NCBI RefSeq assembly: GCF_042100115.1
Contig: NC_091273.1
Coordinates: 3,348,001-3,412,000 of the forward strand
DNA from: Alternaria dauci
Taxonomy: Eukaryota > Ascomycota > Dothideomycetes > Pleosporales > Pleosporaceae
Direction: 5' to 3'
DNA: 64,000 bases
In this document: one piece after another, positions 41,293 to 53,980 of the stretch
Position numbering within the stretch: position 1 is the first letter of the stretch
How the letters are laid out: the number at the start of each line of letters is the position of its first letter
Notes under the pieces: model-generated
What the model was told of the DNA's origin: nothing
Database searches by the model: none
Seen by the model: the letters and a program-made list of their open reading frames with translations, nothing else
Program-made: the position numbers and the translations under genes

Positions 41293-42702
41293 CTACACCT
41301 GCTTCTCGCCGCGAGGCGGCGCCCTGACATAGGCATCCGGCTTGGCCAGACCCTTTTTGCGAAGCACATATGTATTCCAAGCGTAGCTCATCTGCGCCGT
41401 CACGCTCACAGGAGGGCGCTGGTCGCCGAACTTGTACAGCTGCGGCTTGGAGAGACCCTTTCGCCTGAGGATGTACGTCTTGAACCACCAGGGTAGATTC
41501 TGACCGGCCTGGTATTTCATGTGAGTGCGCGTGGGAACACCAAAGATATAGTCGAGCTCTTCGAGTGTTCGTTGCTTGGTCTCAGGTAGCCACAGGAAGC
41601 TGCTTGTCTGTCAGATGTGTTCTGTTTTGTAACACGCGAGGGGTATCAACTAACATCATGATTAGAGCGACAACGTTCATACCAGCGTAAAAGCCGAACA
41701 CTCCCTGGGCCTTCATAACTTTGAGCATACGAGGGAGTGTAAGCGATAGGACCGCTGCCTAGAATTTGGCGCCCCAAGTCAGTATGGGTCCTACCATGCG
41801 CTTCGCAAATCCTCGATACGTACCCAGAAATTGTTCGTCGCCACAGCCCACGACATGCCCACTTCACGATGCGAGAGCGGGAATACCTCGGCCGAGTATG
41901 TGAACGGCACTGGTCCCATTCCAGGAGAATAAAAGGCACCAAAAAGATACACGAAGAACGCGATCAAACCCAGATGCGCAGAACTGTCCTTGGGGATGTA
42001 GTAGCACATCCCAGCTACGAGGAGTGTCCAGAACATATTCGGAAACGTGAACAGGAGCAGTCCGCGCCGACCGAAAGTATCAATTGTCCAGACAGCAGGC
42101 CATGCGAACGTAAAGTTGACAAGACCGAAGCCAAACGACGCGATGAGAGCTTCCTTGTTCGACGCTCCTCCTTCTGCGAAGATTGTTGAGCTGTAGAATG
42201 CGATGATGTTGATACCGCACATCTGTCTTCGTCAGCTATTATCTCTGGTACCAGCCGTTCTTCATTCGCTTACCTGCTGCCCTATCATAACGATACCAGA
42301 CGCTTGCGTCGCTCGACGAACGCGTGGAATAGTGAACAGCTCAACGAAGCGCGTAAAGAAGTTCGACTTGGGATTGATGCCAGCTTCACGGATCAAAACC
42401 TCTTCCTGTTCCAACAAGCAATGGGTATAGTAGAGGTCGCGCGCCGCCTGGAGAGGTGTGTTTCTCAGACGGAGGAAGGACCGATACGCTTTGGCATATT
42501 TGCGCTTCTTCATGAGCCACCGAGGACTTTCGGGTACAAACCAGATCCCAAGGCAGAGAGGTACGGCAGGGATAAAAGCGGATCCGAACTGCAGACGCCA
42601 AGCAATTGCTCCGGTGTTCTATTCCTCGTCAGCAATCGCAACCCCCATACTCACAACAACTCACCATAACAGCTAGATTAGCCACCGTGCCGAGGAAAAT
42701 CC

Positions 42703-42707
42703 CGAAA
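42703..42707. repeat. Target site duplication CGAAA (left)
   Basis: CGAAA directly precedes the LTR at 42708 and is repeated at 49750-49754 directly after the other LTR; this 5-bp duplication marks the integration event. Confidence 0.95.
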
Positions 42708-42833
42708 TGTAGAATAAGAAGAGAGAAGTTAATGTATTTTCTATCTATAAGTGAGGTAGCGGGTTTATATAGTCTAAGGGGAGGCGCTAGTGAACGCTAG
42801 TGAGTGAAACACGTGATAGCTTCTAGTCTAACA
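42708..42833 (-). repeat. 3' LTR (126 bp)
   Basis: Read on the minus strand it starts TGTTAGACTAG and ends TTCTACA. It differs from the 5' LTR at four positions, all transitions. A purine tract (TTTAGGGGGGC on the minus strand) abuts its inner edge. Confidence 0.95.
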
Positions 42834-42845
42834 GCCCCCCTAAAG
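42834..42845 (-). other. Polypurine tract of the Copia element
   Basis: Minus strand reads a run ending GGGGGGC directly before the 3' LTR; position and base content fit the plus-strand priming site. Confidence 0.75.
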
Positions 42846-44098
42846 CCTATTATAGGATAAAATAAGCTTATAAAGGAGTAATAAAAGTATAAGGAAAGAA
42901 GGGAGATATATAGTGTATAACACTTTTTTTTAGAGTAGTGTGCTATAGTAGGAGTAGTTACTATCTAAGTTGTATAAGTCCCTAAGTTATTCGCTAAAGC
43001 AGGGTTCCTAGAGTTAGTAATCTTCTCTATCTTAGGGAGTAGAATGTAGGAGGTAAGTACCCTATAGTATAATGTATTTTTCTTTGTTTAGATCCTTAGT
43101 TTCTTCCTTATATATGCGATGTGCGTATTTAGATCTAATATAGTTATACTAGGCTTCTTTATATTCTAGAGTAATACTATAGGCTATAGACAGCTATATT
43201 AATTTAAGTGTAGCTACACAATTAGCATCTTTATATACTTCCTAGAGGAGGATTATATATAGAGTAGTGTCTTTTTTGTTATTATTTATATTATTGTACT
43301 ATATAGTTAACGTTACTATACTTATTATAAGTTACTAAGAGCCTTATCTAGTAAGATTTAGGTTCTAGTATACAGCTTTAAACTTAGTTAGGTTAAGTGG
43401 TTTAGTAAGTATATTAGTAGGGTTATCTTTACTACTAACCTATTTAATTGTAATTATACTGTCTTATACATAGTCTTAGAGAAAGTAGTAAAAGATATTA
43501 ATATATTTACTACGCTAGTAGAACTCTAGGTTCTTAGAGAGCTTTATAGTAGACTAGTTATTAATATATATATAAGAATAGTTATAAAGTGTATTCTAAG
43601 ATTAAGGTCGTTAATAAACGCTTTTAGCTAAATAGCTTCTTTAACAGCCTCTCTAAGGGCTATATATTCTACTTTATACGTAGATTATATAACTACCTTC
43701 TATATAGTAGACGACTAGGAGATAGGGCTGTTAGTAAGGGTAAAAACGTAACTAGTTATAGAACGTTAGGAGTCTATATAGCTAGCCTAATTAGCGTCTA
43801 TATATCTAATAAGCTATAGTTATTATTATATAGAGTAGGTAATTCCTAGATCTTATATTCTATAGATATAAGCGTATACTCTAGTAATACTATTAAGATA
43901 CGCTTAGGAAGGGTTAGTATTAAAGCGGCCGTAGAGTAATATAGTATATATAAGGTCTATACGCGTTATTACTAGTATATAGTTAAGAGAGCTAAATATT
44001 TAGAGGTATTATTTCTTAAACTCTCTTATAGCCTCTGTGTCTGTGTTATAAATAAGTTTATTATAGTAATTATAGGGATTATTAGAGATAGGTAGGTT
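42846..44098 (-). other. RIP-decayed RNase H / 3' pol region
   Basis: Very TA-rich, with few CpA or TpG dinucleotides and no long open frame on either strand. By position it should be the end of reverse transcriptase and RNase H. The decay stops sharply at about 44,095, where normal-composition RT sequence begins. Confidence 0.7.
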
Positions 44099-44875
44099 TT
44101 AAAGGTTATACCTATCTAAGACACGACGGGCGTATTCTGCCTGGTGGATTTTTATGGTGCCTTGGTTGTGTTCGATATGCATACCGAGGTACAGTGCGTC
44201 TGGATCTTCCGAGGTTATGACAAAGACTTCGGAGAGCTGAACCTTGAATTTGTCGACGGCGCTGTTGCTTGGTGCATAAATCCGGATGTCATCAACGTGT
44301 ACGGAGATAATTGTTGTGTCGGACGTATGTATGTAGACACAAGGATCATAGGGTGAGGTGCGGAAACCCATGTCCTTCAGTTTGCTCGTAAGCATGTTGT
44401 ACCACGTTCGCGGTGACTGTACCAGCCCGTAGAGAGATTTGTGCAGGAGCCAAGCATGGCCTTGTGGAAGTATAACAGGAGGTGGCGGGATACAGTAGAC
44501 CTGTTCTTTGAGGTCGGCATTGAGAAAAGCAACGTATACATCTACTTGGGATGTTGTCCATTGTAGAAGCGTGCACAGAGCTAGCAGTGTCCGAATTGAA
44601 GTGGTTTTGGCTGTTGGGGAAAACTTCTCGCCATAGTCGATGCCGGGTCGCTGTTGGAAGCCTCGAGCAACTACACGAGCTTTGAGTTTGGCTATGGTAC
44701 CCGTTGGTGTGAGCTTGGCTTTGTACACGAACTTAGAGGAGATAGCTTTAGTTCTAGGAGGTAGTAGAATAACTTTATAGACCTTTTTATCTCTTAGAGA
44801 GGCTAACTCTTTATATATTACGTTATACTAATCCTTAGCTTAAGGTGTAGTTATAGCTTCTTTGTACGTTCGTGG
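44099..44875 (-). other. Copia reverse transcriptase domain (partly intact)
   Basis: A 209-codon open segment (44099-44728) encodes RT blocks: KARVVARGFQQRPGIDY, QVDVYVAFLNADLKE, LLHKSLYGLVQSPRTWY and the catalytic ISVHVDDIRIY (VDD variant of YVDD at about 44.30 kb), then YLGMHIE and the characteristic HQAEYARRVLDRYNL. Upstream, after a short TA-rich block (44735-44860), the usual domain start EPRTYKEAI is recognisable at about 44845-44875 in the linker frame. Confidence 0.9.
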
Positions 44876-45241
44876 TTCGCGGAGGATAGTCGTGGCTGTA
44901 AGAGCGTATGAAGACGCTACATCGTCATCTAATGGAAGATCCTCGTACCATGCGTCGTGGGAGGTGAGGTCACTGTCCAGTTCTTCGTCGATGGTAATAT
45001 CTGAATGTTGTTGGGGACAGTTGAAGGCAGACATAGCATACTCGTCAAGTTGTTGTAGGTCTTCATCCTGTAGTCCCTCGTCGAAATCAACTGAGGCTTC
45101 TCGTGTTCCTTCAATGTGTCCGTTCGTGCGACAACCTTTGTACTCTGGGTTGTACGTTATGGGAAGGTCGTCGTCATCTTTATCTATTAAGTACGCGGCT
45201 AGCTGTTTTAAGACGTATGTGTTGACGGCGGTCCGCATCGT

Positions 45242-46453
45242 GCATACAGCGGTGTTGTATGGTTGAACTGTTATGAGAAGACATTGTTTGCATAGATGTT
45301 GTCCAGAGCATGTTCGCTTTGATCGGTGACATGCTGTGCAGGTATTGATTGGCAAGGAGTCCAAATATCCGTCCATGTACTCTGCTGTCCAGGTGGTGTC
45401 ATTGTCACTATACTGTGCGCACGGGCGATGATGTGTACGTCGTGTTGGAAGCTTCATGCGTTCGATACAGTTGGTATAGGGTACACCAAGATCGCAGCGT
45501 CGGTTGAGTGATAGACATCGTAGACATAGATTATTGTCCTTGTCGGCAGTCTGGATGCAAGCTCGTCTTTTGTTGACATATACGTTGCATGGGTGTTTGC
45601 CGTCACATTGTACTGCAGAGAGACTACTTTTCTTAAGGTATTTTACTATAATATCTTAATACGTAAAGTAGCGTTCTTCTTTTAAGAGCATTAGTACGAC
45701 GCGCGAAACAGGACGTGCACAATTAAGCTAATTGTTGTTGGATATGCATAGATCGCACGGATCATCCGGGGTTTTGCGTATGTATTTCACGCGGCAGGAC
45801 CTTACGGCGCATAGGCGACAGGCATCAGCGGCTATACGCTTTTAGTCCTCTATACCTAGGATATATATACCTCTCCTATTAGAGTAGGGTCCGCATCTTC
45901 CAGGTTTGCTTCCAAGTTTACATACGGATCCTTTACTCAGACAGGTGACGCATGGTGAGGGAGAGAGGGTGTCGCTATCGTTGTCATTCGTGTGCTTTGG
46001 GGCGGTAGGGGCGGAGATATCGTTGTCGCCTCCTGTATGTTCTTAGGTAGCGGGGACGAGGATATCATCGTCGTCGCTTACTTGTTCTGGGCTACTAGGG
46101 ACGGAGAGATCATCGTCGTCGCTTGCTTGTTCTGGGGTAGCAGAGACGATTGTGTAGTCATTAGAAGCGGTGCGAGGTACCGTTCGTGCGTTTCCTGTGG
46201 ATGTTGATGATGGAGTGGTCTTGGAGTTGGTGCTGAAATAGGGCGACACATTTGGTTGAGTTTTCTCAAGAGCTCGTTGGCGCTTTCTCTTTTCTTTTCG
46301 TCGCGCATTCTTTTGTTGTTGGTACAGTTGTTGGTCACGGTCGGACTGGGTTTGATAGTTGCAGTCCAGCTTTCTCTAGAGGCATGGTTCGCAGGGGTCA
46401 TCCTTATTGACTGGTTGTAGACACTTTAAGTTTGAACGAACACAAGGGCCACA
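45242..46453 (-). other. Tandem cysteine clusters between integrase and RT (Zn2Cys6-like)
   Basis: One minus-strand frame, interrupted by a few TAA/TAG codons, encodes five cysteine clusters. Cluster 1 (46361-46453) is C-x2-C-x6-C-x9-C-x2-C-x6-C, the fungal binuclear pattern, starting ACGPCVRSNLKC. Cluster 2 (45893-45952) has C-x2-C-x6-C-x8-C. Cluster 3 (45746-45820) has C-x2-C-x4-C-x12-C-x2-C. Cluster 4 (45494-45589) has the same spacing as cluster 1 apart from a ten-residue centre, with a Tyr (TAT, 45578-45580) where the second Cys would be, a G-to-A change. Cluster 5 (45242-45340) begins C-x2-C-x6-C-x5-C-x2-C. A basic stretch (KNARRKEKRKRQRALEK) and an acidic repeat follow cluster 1. A metal-binding role is inferred from spacing only. 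Confidence 0.8.
45975..46160 (-). repeat. Acidic tandem repeat in the Copia linker
   Basis: About four decaying copies of a 15-16-codon unit of the type PEQ(A/V)SDDDD(L/I)xVPxx lie between cluster 1 and cluster 2. The two best copies are adjacent, and the third has a TAA stop at its start. Such acidic repeats may be flexible spacers. Confidence 0.75.
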
Positions 46454-46469
46454 GGCGGTGTTGATATCG

Positions 46470-47690
46470 ACAAGGCTATAACCTTAGAACTTTTTAGGGG
46501 GAGTAGACTAGTTAATCTCGTCTCCGAAGACATCCGTGGTGCCATTAAAGGATGATAGAGCGACGTCGTCGTGCAGTTCAGAGTGGTCGGAGTCATCATA
46601 GTCTTCTGCGTTGTCAGGTATGGGTGGTTGAGCAAGAGGTGCGTGGGTATTGATGTGTAGTCCATGTGGTTAGGTATCGTCAAAACCGGTGGAGTTATCA
46701 ACTCGGGTAATAGTGACGCGTTTAACTTCTCGAGTGTCAGAACGCCATACAAGGCACAGCTCGTCACTCAAGGCGCATAGGAAATGGGCTAGGTATCCGC
46801 GAGGATAGTGGAGTTTAGTGATTTAGGCCGCTGTCAGGAGCTCAGGTGGCGTTATAACGTATACTCATGCGCCCTAAGTATTATCCTTACTTAGGTTAGG
46901 TTTTCTTCTATATAGGGCCTTATATAGGGTCTTAAGGAATTATAAGGCTTTAGATAAGGCTTAGTTCTTCTTATTAACTACTTCCTTTATTATAAATATC
47001 TAAAGTCCTTCTAGTAGCGTAGTATTCCTTAGGGTTTCTTTATATTAGTTAATAATACCTTAGACTATAATTAACCTAGGGGTAAAATCTTAAATTATCG
47101 CAGCTGTGCGTTCTCGTACCGTACGGTGTGAGCGCTCAACAGCACTGGGCTGATGATGTGCGTAGGGCGCGCTAGCTTCGACGGTAATACTATGTGTAGT
47201 ACAGTAATTTGTTATAGTTTGTTGAACAAACTCGTTGTCACAGCGCAGTCGTACAATAGGTCGGCCATGTTCTATAGAAAGCTAAGTAAGAAGGTTAATA
47301 AGGGCTTATCCTATTTTATACTTCTAATTAAGGAAGTAGACCTATGTAAAGCGAGTAGCGTCGTCGATAAGGAATAGTGCATATCGTTCACCTTTGATAC
47401 TGGGAACAGGGTAGGGTCCCTAGGTATCAGCAGTGACAAGTTCACCAAAGTGTTCGTAGTGTCGGCTTACGGGATCTCGGGGAATTTTGTAGAGAGCTTG
47501 TGTGGTGGCACAAACTGGACAGACATCCTTAAGCTTTGCTTGGATCTGTTTATTAGTGACATTCATTCCGTCACTGATCTTTGTGAGTCGGCGCATGTAG
47601 TCAAGAGAGATATGCCCAAGACGACGATGTTCAGACCATACTAGGTCATCGAAGTCGACAGCAGCCGCAGCTAGTTATAGGGAGTAAGTA
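46470..47690 (-). other. Copia integrase (degenerate)
   Basis: Minus-strand frames show the GAG-pre-integrase zinc site (EHRRLGHISLDYMRRL ... CPVC, about 47.64-47.52 kb), the core strand with the first Asp (ELVTADT, followed by a TAG where Trp is usual), LFLIDDATRF, the second catalytic Asp in RLRCDNEFVQQ (about 47.24 kb) and the Glu in PSAVERSHRTVRE (about 47.13 kb). A C-terminal part (AHFLCALSDELCLVWRSDTR, about 46.75 kb) matches the position of the usual Copia integrase tail. Stops and TA-rich patches (46880-47100, 47275-47345) inactivate it. Confidence 0.85.
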
Positions 47691-48019
47691 GTACTTAGGA
47701 CGTAGACGTTAGCGCTAGTATATAGTGGTGTGTAGGCGATTTCTTTGTTATCCGTTTCTCGATGTAGGGTCATACCATCCCGTCAATTGGTGATAGTGTA
47801 GTAACCCGGGCCTGAGTTCACAAATGTGGAGATGGACAGCAGGTTACACCTTGCATTCGGCGCGTAGCGGACGTTAGTAAGTTCTAAGATAAGTTAAGAA
47901 CTATCTTATATAGTAATAATAAATTCTATATTTCCTTTACCTATAATTTTAAGTTAAGAGCCTAATTTATAGGTACTAATAGTCTTATTATAATATTTAA
48001 GATATAAGAAGATAGAAGG

Positions 48020-48070
48020 ATTATTAGTGATGTGGCGTGACGCTCCGCTATCGCAGATCCAGAGATTAGA
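48020..48070 (-). other. Copia aspartic protease active site
   Basis: Minus strand encodes LWICDSGASRHITNN, the D-S-G-A..H motif of Copia proteases (Asp codon 48050-48052). Flanking sequence is TA-rich and decayed. Confidence 0.85.
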
Positions 48071-48430
48071 TGTGGGGGCGGGGGGAGACGTGGTAGCCGT
48101 GAATGCGGATGTATTGATACTATTAACTATATCTAAACCCGTACTATACCTATAGACTATTTAGTCTACCCCCCTTATACTAGGAAGGAACCCCTAGTCC
48201 TAAGACGTATTAGTACTAGTTACGGGTATGGGGTGGGCATACGTACAGTTGATGTTTAGATAGTTGACACTGTAGCCGTTAAAGTTGGATGTGTCGTGAT
48301 TATTGGGGAGGTTATTCGCGGATGCAATGACTCGATCTAAGAAGAAGACGTCCTTCTCGTCATCGATAAGTGCAAGACCTGCTGTCGGGGAGTTGACGGG
48401 GTTAGGTTTGACTGTAGCAGAGGTATCGTT

Positions 48431-48720
48431 TTATCGGGCCTTCTTGCGATAGGTGTCCTCGACATGGCTAAGCTTCTTGCAGAAAGCGCAGGTAGGTGTG
48501 TCAGGCTTGCCGACATAGCGACAGGTGTCGATGGAATGTCCGATATTGCCGCAGTGTTCGCACTTGGTGGTGTTGCGGTTTGTTGTATTTCGGGCGGTTG
48601 GGTCGTGATCCTTAGAGGATGTGTTGGTGGAGCGGGGAGTGGTGGTAGCCGTCGCTTTGGCCGCTTTGTGTGTCATCCACCTGTCCTTGTTGTCGTCTCG
48701 GAAGTTGTAGAGCATGGTCT
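48431..48720 (-). other. Copia gag C-terminal part with CCHC zinc knuckle
   Basis: An open segment encodes MLYNFRDDNKDRWMTHKAAK, a Thr/Asn-rich spacer and the knuckle CEHCGNIGHSIDTC (C-x2-C-x4-H-x4-C, 48521-48562), then a CAFCKKLSH segment. These are nucleocapsid features that bind the element RNA. The N-terminal part of gag (48.8-49.5 kb) is recognisable only as short open pieces between TA-rich blocks. Confidence 0.85.
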
Positions 48721-49608
48721 TGTATTCTTTGAATACGTTCTCGTTGATGGAGACGTTGTAATGGGTGAGCTTCCAGTGGCTGATGAAGTGCGAGTACTGT
48801 GATGGGAGACTACTGTTGATCTTGGAGATGAGTTGCGCTAGAGTAAGAGTACCTTTAGCCTTAATAATATTACTATATAACTCTTAGAAGTAAATAATAT
48901 AAGGGCGAATATTAGCTAGATCAGACAGGGTGAGTTTGTTGAGCTTGGCGAGAGAGCGGTTGACAGTGACATCGTTAGGGGCTTTGTTCGCGAGGATAAT
49001 AGTATCCTAGGCTAGTTAAGGGTTAACTTAATACTTATTAAGGACTTTACTCTAGACCTATAGTTATATAGTAGCCTTAAGTAGAGTAAGAGTAGTATAT
49101 AACTATTTATTCTAATCTTTCTAGGCCTAGAGTTATACGTAGTAGAGATTAAGTTCGGCAGTGGCGTCCAGTGTGGAGGTCTGTGGGACTTGGGCGGCGA
49201 TCTTGGTGTCAGCGCTGCGTCGCTTGGGGCGGGCGTCGCTGACAGAGTGAGCTGGTAGTGTGGGTTTGGTGGGGATGTCATTATCGCCGTTGTAGTAGTT
49301 AGTATAGCCTTAGATAGAGTAGATATTAGTAAACTTTTTAATCTACTTATTATAGTTATTAGGACTATTAAGTTTCTTAAAGTCTTTACCTAGAGTAGCG
49401 TAAACACTAGTAATATTACTTATAGTAGTAGTATTTAAGTAGATATAGGAAATAAGTAAGAGAGGGGTAGATTTATAGCAGGCTGTACGCTTTTATATAA
49501 TATAGTTAGGTAACTAGGTATTATTATAACTATAGCGTTATTATAGTCTGTGTTACGCGACTTTAGCGTAGACTATAGGTAGTAGTAGTTAATTCACGCG
49601 CAGTCACG

Positions 49609-49623
49609 TCTGGGCTCATAACC
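49609..49623 (-). other. Primer binding site matching initiator tRNA-Met anticodon arm
   Basis: Directly inside the 5' LTR the minus strand reads GGTTATGAGCCCAGA, the complement of TCTGGGCTCATAACC, which is an anticodon stem-loop with CAT anticodon. Drosophila copia primes from an internally cleaved initiator tRNA-Met in the same way. Confidence 0.8.
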
Positions 49624-49749
49624 TATAGAATAAGAAGAGAGAAGTTAATGTATTTTCTATCTACAAGTAAGGTAGCGGGTTTATATAGTCTGAGGGGAGG
49701 CGCTAGTGAACGCTAGTGAGTGAAACACGTGATAGCTTCTAGTCTAACA
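49624..49749 (-). repeat. 5' LTR (126 bp)
   Basis: Same length as the 3' LTR with four transition differences; its inner end is TATA-type instead of the canonical CA end (minus strand TTCTATA against TTCTACA), a C-to-T change of RIP type. Confidence 0.95.
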
Positions 49750-49754
49750 CGAAA
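49750..49754. repeat. Target site duplication CGAAA (right)
   Basis: Second copy of the 5-bp duplication flanking the Copia element; part of exon 5 of the interrupted transporter gene. Confidence 0.95.
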
Positions 49755-50838
49755 GCTGTCCATATTTGCCATGACATCACCAGCCCGCCTCGCACACTAG
49801 CTGGTACGTTTTCCGCTGAGAAGACAGGTACAGTGACTTCCTTAAGTCCCATACCGACTCCGAGGAGAACGCGGCACACGGCAAGCTGACCCCAAGTCTG
49901 GCTCAGACCCATGCCAAAAGGCGCCAAAAGGGAGAAGATGGCAGCGATGAAGATGGTGCCACGGCGGCCACAGAGTTCGTTCACCGGATCTGCTTTCGTC
50001 AACAAGAGGGGAAGTTGAGATGGTAGGAACTCCATGGAAACTTACCAGAGATCCAGGCACAGAAGACTGCAGGAGTGAGAAACAAAGTCAGCGTACGCTA
50101 AACAAACTAGCTGCACGTGCTATACGTACCAGCGATAGCGATATAAGGACAGGCATTGACAAAGCCAATGATCCATCCATTCTTCTCACACGTTCCCGCC
50201 GCCTCACACTCAGGACCAGAGTCCGGGATACCCAAGGCCCGACCAAACGTCAAGTTGGCCCCGTTAGAGCCCGTCTGGTCCCATCCCTGAATAGCAGCCG
50301 CAATGGAGTTGAGAATGATGGTAAAGTAGAGCGTTCGCGGTAGCTTGAACCGATGGGTAATCTCCTCGCGGATAGCCGTACGGTCTGCTTCGTCTAGCTC
50401 TTCGAGTTCTTCGAAGAGGGCAGGGGATTGGGCGAGGAGGGCGCCTTTGGCCAGGAGTGGTTCGACATCGGTCAATTGGTGTTCTGTGGCAAAGTCGTGG
50501 ACGTTTGCTAGGAGTTGTTCACGCGGAATGTCGACAAGTGGGTTTTTGATTCTGGGACTTGTTAGTATGGGGGAGTTTGGAAGAATAGTGGCCAGTCGGG
50601 CGATTCAGGTTGGTGCTACTTACTCTCCTTCCAGATTGGCAGTCAGACGAGCGAGGCTCTCTTTGCGCTTCTGCTCATTGTCGAAGATGGAAGCTTTGCG
50701 CTCGTGGTGCTCATTCACCACCGCTGGTCTGGAACAAATACTGTTAGTACAATCTAAGTCGTAGACTATATCATATCTCATTTCACCGCAAGATGTAATT
50801 ACTTACTCGACCTTGATCTCCTTGTCTGGTTCCGACAT

Positions 50839-52538: not shown

Positions 52539-53980
52539 CTAGGAAGCGGGGTTGAAAGTCGAGCTGGCAGGCTGCTCTTCCGACTGTGCAGTACCAGGCC
52601 TGGTCCCTTCTCCCCCAAGTGCGGATGCTATTTCCGTGTTCCGCAATGAACCAGGGGCGTGGTAAGTCCGCAAGAATGTCTTCGCTTTGATAATCTGATC
52701 CAGCGTTTCCTCATCGTGTCTCCGGTCTGCATCTTCCAAGCTTGGTAGAAAGCTGTCTTTCAACTTTGCAATCCTGTCATCATCCTTCTTGTGCCCATGC
52801 GTCGTCTAAACTCCAGAGGCATACCCTACCTCCTTCTGCTTTCCTTTATCTGTGCTATCGCTCGTATCGGCACTTCCGGCAAAGGCTTGCTGGATCGGAG
52901 GTCTTGGTTTCGCCGCGATATCGAGTTCGGCAAACTTGGGTCGCACCTGGAAGATGTTCACGCGGGCGGCGTTGAAGACTTGTTCGGAAGGCGGAATGGC
53001 GACTGCGAGATTTGTGTTTTCGGTGAGGCGTGTGATGAAGAACATGAAGCGACCCGTTTTGATTTGCATCTCTGCAAAGTTTGCGCTACCCGCGGGGATA
53101 TTTGTGTGTTTTCTATGGGAGACAAATGGTTAGTCAGGGATTCTCGTAGGTGGAGTAAGTGTAGGGAATTTGCACTTACGCCATGCTCTGTTTGTGTGTC
53201 TTGAGGATGCTTGATATGCGCTCGAAGCGATCTGTAAAGGGATTTGATTCTTCGGTCTGTCTTGTGACATGGGCAACAGTAAGACATGTCGTCCGCTCAT
53301 ACAGGATGAGTTCTCTCGCATCGATGACCTCTGCCAGCTGTTCCAGCAGTGCCTCGATGGTACCCGCGTTGGGGATCAGATAGTAGATGATTTTCGTCCA
53401 AGCCTTGTATAAGCTCTGGTCCCAGATGCTGGTTGCAAAGAACTCTACAGTGTCCTTGAAGCCTTCACTAGCCTCCCGGATATATTCGGCGCGCTCGTCG
53501 AACATGGCCTGGCGGAGGCGGGCTTGCACAAGATCCATCTTGTGTATGAGACAAAAGACCTTGGCGCTGGGACTGCACTCGTGGAGGGCACGTATGATGT
53601 TGGAGTAGGAGACAACGTCGGCGGCGAATTCGCGCGACTCGATATCGAAGACGAAGATGAGGACTGCAACGGAGCCGAAGACGTGGTTCCTAGATTGGTT
53701 GAGATAGTTCTCGACGAAGCCATCTTGACTGCGGAGAGTTAGTCGGAGCCGTCCTGTCGTCTCACGTCTTGTGGGCTTACCCTCCGCAATCCCAGAGGTT
53801 GAGCATCAGGTTTCCCATGAACTTGATATTGCTGTGCTCGACGTCGATCGTCGCGCCCAGCCTACGGACATCTTTGGCAACGTAGTTGCTGAAGACGATG
53901 CTTCTCATCGACGACTTTCCAGCTCCGCTCTTGCCCATCAGCAGCACCTTGCGCTGTTTCTGCCGCTTGATCGAGTTCAT
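52539..53980 (-). CDS. GTR1: Rag-family GTPase Gtr1
   Basis: Four exons, complement(52539..52773, 52825..53112, 53180..53728, 53781..53980), give 423 residues. G-domain motifs: GKSGAGKSS (16-24), WDCGGQ (63-68, joined by intron 1) and LIHKMD, the HKxD variant of G4 found in Gtr1/RagA. The C-terminal roadblock-like half (CLTVAHVTR to [17 protein letters not shown]) follows. Gtr1 with Gtr2 signals amino acid state to TORC1 at the vacuole. The last intron (52774-52824) is 51 bp and adds 77 residues ([20 protein letters not shown]...) that look coding; if it is retained, translation stops at 52806 after GYASGV. The core assignment is secure; the 3' end is less so. Confidence 0.92.

Follow-up and report, generated by a model that had tools for sequence, protein, structure and literature searches.

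Tandem modules resembling Zn2Cys6 clusters between integrase and reverse transcriptase in one clade of fungal Copia retrotransposons

One reverse transcriptase (RT) clade of fungal Copia retrotransposons carries tandem six-cysteine modules that belong to the gag-pol frame and lie between its integrase and RT parts. The number of modules is about six in the family of the element described here and three in the distant relative P0011. The cysteines are better kept than the other residues of this linker, both in the relatives and in the decayed copy that lies in the window (the whole stretch of 64,000 nucleotides analysed here).

A complete Copia element within a sugar-transporter gene

The element has the features of Ty1/Copia: an RVT_2 reverse transcriptase, an integrase upstream of RT in a single pol frame, and the set of LTRs, TSD, primer binding site (PBS) and polypurine tract (PPT). 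These are, in the direction of the element:

49750..49754, minus strand: TSD TTTCG, upstream copy
42708..49749, minus strand: whole Copia element, 7042 bp, with LTR pair, TSD, PBS and PPT; RVT_2 at E=2.5e-51, gag_pre-integrs at E=2.5e-7
49624..49749, minus strand: 5' LTR, 126 bp, with four differences from the 3' LTR, transitions only
49612..49623, minus strand: PBS, complementary to the anticodon arm of host tRNA-Met (putative half-tRNA type)
48521..48562, minus strand: gag CCHC knuckle, C-x2-C-x4-H-x4-C, frame 0
48038..48058, minus strand: protease ICDSGAS motif, frame 0
47483..47629, minus strand: integrase HHCC zinc region, frame 0 (PF13976)
44099..44827, minus strand: reverse transcriptase (RVT_2), PF07727 at E=2.5e-51, frame 0, in frame with the array
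42834..42841, minus strand: PPT AGGGGGG(C), recognised by sequence, adjoining the 3' LTR
42708..42833, minus strand: 3' LTR, TG...CA, 126 bp
42703..42707, minus strand: TSD TTTCG, downstream copy

A single minus-strand frame thus holds the gag knuckle, the protease motif, the integrase HHCC region, the array and RT. Together with the domain matches, this bears out the initial annotation, which had placed the array in a Copia element between integrase and RT, and it puts the array within the pol frame. The element splits a sugar-transporter (PF00083) gene in a coding exon (41791-42618 and 49755-50041, minus strand), and PF00083 is matched by three ORFs flanking it. When the element and one TSD are removed, the flanks read ...WQIWTAFGIFLGTVANLAVM, and the transporter reading frame runs across the empty site.

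The 12-mer complementary to the PBS occurs five times in the genome: in the element, at the anticodon arm of three tRNA-Met genes, and once elsewhere. This makes half-tRNA priming likely. The exact 14-mer is confined to the element, and the 9-mer is common. The tRNA scan of the 64-kb window found no tRNA gene, and Rfam gave no match at gathering level, the one weak match (near the 5' end) being far under the cut-off. Both LTRs contain, by eye, a 10-bp direct repeat, TCACTAGCGY, in two adjacent copies, as well as a CACGTG. These are possible regulator sites.

In the genome (34.9 Mb, 10 contigs), whose content is fungal, RVT_2 marks a single locus and PF00172 has at least 141 matches. Each of four sequence searches found a single internal copy of the element. 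There are two more copies reduced to LTRs, both on contig C3; by eye, they have duplications of 5 bp, CCGAT and GTTAC:

L005, approx. 1495-1620: LTR-only copy, 5-bp duplication by eye; may lie in a coding region
L006, approx. 1500-1615: LTR-only copy, 5-bp duplication by eye

The insertion sites found are therefore only three, i.e., the coding exon of the transporter and the two LTR-only sites.

Up to six modules in tandem

The array and the segments between its modules are organised as follows:

46361..46453, minus strand: module 1, 6/6 Cys kept, one stop inside
46262..46321, minus strand: basic stretch after module 1, frame 0, which we take to be NLS-like; the equivalent stretch of P0005 is predicted to be helical
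45998..46168, minus strand: acidic repeats of [VI]-[VI]-P-[SA]-T type before module 2, presumably similar to SUMO-interacting motifs
45860..45952, minus strand: module 2, two Cys changed to Tyr
45719..45820, minus strand: module 3, one Cys changed to Tyr
45557..45670, minus strand: module 4, three Cys changed to Tyr
45419..45526, minus strand: module 5, one Cys changed to Tyr
45242..45340, minus strand: module 6, 6/6 Cys kept

Cysteine clusters had been described in the minus-strand frame at 45242-46453, and we found them there, the first with exactly the spacing given for it (C-x2-C-x6-C-x9-C-x2-C-x6-C). The clusters are real; their number, initially put at five, may be six, as the relatives allow six modules. 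In P0005, the 36 array cysteines divide without remainder into six modules of six: modules 1 and 2 have canonical spacing, module 3 has x8 loops, and modules 4-6 have one longer loop apiece. From these sequences, we prefer six modules to five because this reading leaves no cysteine over. The former cluster 4 then consists of the second half of module 4 and the first half of module 5. This alternative middle pairing is also canonical in P0005 and P0049, and so is module 5 of P0049 as drawn in the six-module reading. The change from Cys to Tyr reported for cluster 4 is present, but it is not a single event: seven of the 36 array cysteines are lost across the modules of the window copy, and every one reads Tyr.

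When all six frames are scanned for matches with at least 5/6 cysteines, four fall in the 1.2-kb array region versus six scattered elsewhere in the 64 kb. One cluster match at 53004-53186 (plus strand) was taken as chance. It lies opposite or beside a Gtr1/RagA GTPase gene (53176-53805, minus strand), where the plus strand has chance matches both over the gene and just beside it.

We shuffled the residues of each linker 5000 times per sequence and scored loose and tight spacing patterns. The loose pattern finds six modules in P0005, four in P0004, three in P0011, two in P0049 and two in the window, and these counts were reached in 0/5000 shuffles each. The tight pattern finds four in P0005, two in P0004 and three in P0011, again reached in 0/5000 shuffles each. 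Its single module in the decayed window copy was reached in 8/5000 shuffles, and the single one in P0049 in 12/5000.

The array is shared by relatives and its cysteines are conserved

The relatives are predicted proteins (P0004 being an annotated gene model) and were compared at the protein level. A query made of linker and RT retrieved 45 proteins among 6,720 candidates. The linker-containing relatives in this search are P0004 (Alternaria burnsii, 1265 aa, 51% over the entire query), P0005 (818 aa) and, more distantly related, P0011 (1647 aa, spanning gag to RT), and the array is present in 3/3. P0011 has its three modules at the same position, its integrase match (45%) being followed by its RT match (42%) in the same order as in the window. 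Five of the 45 (P0006-P0010), and likewise P0001 and P0002, begin downstream of the array position and are uninformative on its presence. In the remaining 37 of the 45 proteins, the scan found no array, its sole match (P0038) corresponding to gag knuckles; 32 of these 37 have 500 residues upstream of RT and five have fewer. CxxC motifs upstream of RT number at most two in those 32 Copia proteins, versus ten in P0004, ten in P0005 and six in P0011.

Searching with the array itself (6,235 candidates) added one further relative, P0049, which has part of the array. By eye, its tail aligns with P0007 and P0009, which suggests that the P0007/P0009 branch also has the array. Searches of viral contigs and of genome contigs gave no relative. 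In the RT tree, the window, P0001, P0004 and P0006-P0011 group in one clade (97/82) in which P0011 is the outermost member, consistent with a single origin of the array. This tree left out P0005 and P0043, which are too short, and it includes proteins whose sequences do not reach into the linker (P0001, P0006, P0008 and P0010).

Relative to the 36 cysteines of P0005, 33/36 are retained in P0004 and 29/36 in the window. The proportion of kept cysteines exceeds that of other kept linker residues in P0004 (33/38 versus 158/398), P0049 (21/25 versus 67/192) and the window (29/39 versus 179/404). The stops and the RIP-like decay of the window copy could have indicated that the cysteines of the array arose by chance in a degraded frame, or that a piece of a host gene was inserted in this copy alone. 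Both are ruled out by the array in P0004, P0005 and P0049 and by the three modules in P0011: relatives hold the array ahead of RT, and the shuffles never reach the loose-pattern counts, so that the probability we leave to this explanation is negligible. In the protein relatives, none of the conditions initially named as refuting the array applies (unconserved cysteines, a frame outside pol, an insertion private to this copy).

RIP-like decay of the window copy

Within the element, the rise in RIP-type indices is patchy and strongest near both ends; the flanking bins measured show no rise. The AT shift is strong in stretches near both LTRs and in the RNase H part; parts of the array, of RT and of gag are little affected. 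The copy has stop codons, including the one in module 1. Taken together, P0004 and the window show ten cysteine losses relative to the 36 of P0005, and all are to Tyr. This is the change expected under RIP (CpA>TpA), because a TGY codon carries CpA on the opposite strand. The simplest reading is therefore that the window copy is the scarred form of a complete array. Since every TGY codon has CpA opposite, RIP is expected to hit cysteine-rich domains preferentially, and the array offers a clean case.

Distant relatives of Zn2Cys6 clusters

Fungal Zn2Cys6 clusters are regarded as transcription-factor domains, mostly present once per protein. A profile of the modules searched against PDB finds LAC9 (E 2.4e-7), GAL4 (1.1e-6), PUT3 and LEU3, versus 0.15 for one shuffled control, and hhalign gave 93.6% versus 8.2%. 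The predicted fold of module 1 appears similar to that of Gal4-type clusters; the full array gave no confident prediction. The initial description of the clusters as Zn(II)2Cys6-like therefore holds in terms of relatedness, at a level below the Pfam cut-off: against PF00172 (gathering score 21), the best piece reaches 20.2 bits, two others 18.1 and 15.8, and three pieces have no match. The whole of P0011 scores 8.8 bits, also under the gathering score.

The layout C-x2-C-x6-C-x5-12-C-x2-C-x6-8-C is found in modules 1 and 2 of P0005, module 2 of P0004, module 1 of the window, module 5 of P0049, 2/3 modules of P0011 and the middle pairing of P0005 and P0049. It is absent from modules 3, 4 and 6 and from module 5 of P0005, where loops are longer; these match by the loose pattern only or, in the case of module 3, with x8. 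The basic residues that contact DNA, between Cys2 and Cys3, also differ: positions +1, +4 and +6 are basic in 1, 4 and 7 of 17 module halves, versus 19, 17 and 20 of 20 host Zn2Cys6 domains. Because these contacts are mostly missing and single modules fall under the Pfam cut-off, the modules are, as judged from their sequences, distant relatives of Zn2Cys6 clusters and not standard members.

The missing basic residues count against a plain transcription-factor reading. Self-regulation, in which the array would bind the element's own LTR as a transcription regulator, seems very unlikely to us. Zn2Cys6 relatives are transcription regulators and the LTR has the adjacent 10-bp repeats seen by eye, but a CGG pair was not seen there (by eye), and the array sits within pol, where it is not known to have an ORF or start of its own.

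Tandem clusters occur in host proteins too: two loci of the genome (G000:C1:6617523-6617789 and G000:C4:1917868-1918095) each contain a pair of adjacent PF00172 clusters in a single frame.

Possible functions of the array

We see about an even chance that the conserved array, built of distant Zn2Cys6 relatives, acts, linked to integrase, as a tether to target DNA or chromatin. After processing, it would remain with the C-terminal side of integrase, and each module would bind two zincs. Multivalence and the basic stretch would aid import of the integration complex, which the array would then hold on target DNA or chromatin, in a role paralleling that of the chromovirus chromodomain or of the C-terminal region of Ty1/Ty5 integrase.

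The weak basic signature somewhat favours two other readings. The array could be a nucleic-acid chaperone or packaging domain for the element's own RNA and cDNA (primer annealing, strand transfer) that takes no part in target selection. The basic residues typical of hosts are largely lacking while the cysteines are retained, module 1 is followed by a strongly basic stretch, and the many modules fit non-specific binding. We nevertheless judge this rather unlikely, as gag already provides a CCHC knuckle and the modules resemble dsDNA-binding clusters by profile and, for module 1, by predicted fold. Alternatively, zinc-stabilised modules and acidic repeats could form a protein-interaction platform that binds host proteins (possibly SUMO-like) or multimerises integrase. 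The weakness of the DNA-contact residues agrees with this, as does the recurrence of the acidic hydrophobic repeat (by pattern, four in P0005, three in P0004 and two in the window); the repeat differs among relatives and the candidate is without a known partner, which makes a platform distinctly unlikely in our opinion.

A broader form of the tether reading is that, in a fungal Copia clade, Gal4-type clusters gave rise to a multivalent targeting organ joined to integrase, as the first such tandem use for integration in an LTR retroelement. We put this forward tentatively, as a possibility that we doubt somewhat. As a candidate Copia targeting module, the array has a directly testable signature (zinc binding and insertion bias).

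Comparison with known systems

Among the matches listed from the open-access literature, no title or opening part of an abstract describes such an array. In the passages considered from PMC5445492, the only mention of zinc is the gag finger. Those from PMC3248453 do not mention zinc; they refer to a supplementary figure of complex transposons that carry extra domains.

Among retrotransposons, the closest parallels are in position. Chromoviruses (Ty3/Gypsy) belong to another superfamily, and their chromodomain has another fold and is one domain rather than an array. It is an extra domain C-terminal of integrase in pol, as passages of PMC3248453 describe, and the array is in the matching position relative to integrase. 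Within Copia, the integrase C-terminus interacts with Pol III subunits in Ty1 and with Sir4 in Ty5, according to passages of PMC5911963; these targeting regions occupy the same pol position as the array and are not described as zinc-cluster arrays in those passages, and the array is without a known binding partner.

With the Zn_clus family (PF00172; Gal4, Lac9, Put3, Leu3), the array shares the cysteine layout, significant profile similarity and, as far as the prediction goes, the fold of module 1. Unlike those proteins, it sits in a retrotransposon polyprotein with up to six clusters in tandem, and the loops of its modules 3-6 are of unusual length, its basic DNA contacts are few and its scores lie under the Pfam cut-off. 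A conserved array of Zn2Cys6 relatives in a retrotransposon pol is a second setting for such clusters and raises the question of domain exchange between hosts and elements. The gag CCHC and integrase HHCC of Copia are likewise cysteine motifs of zinc type in the same polyprotein; both are present here, and the array is extra to both.
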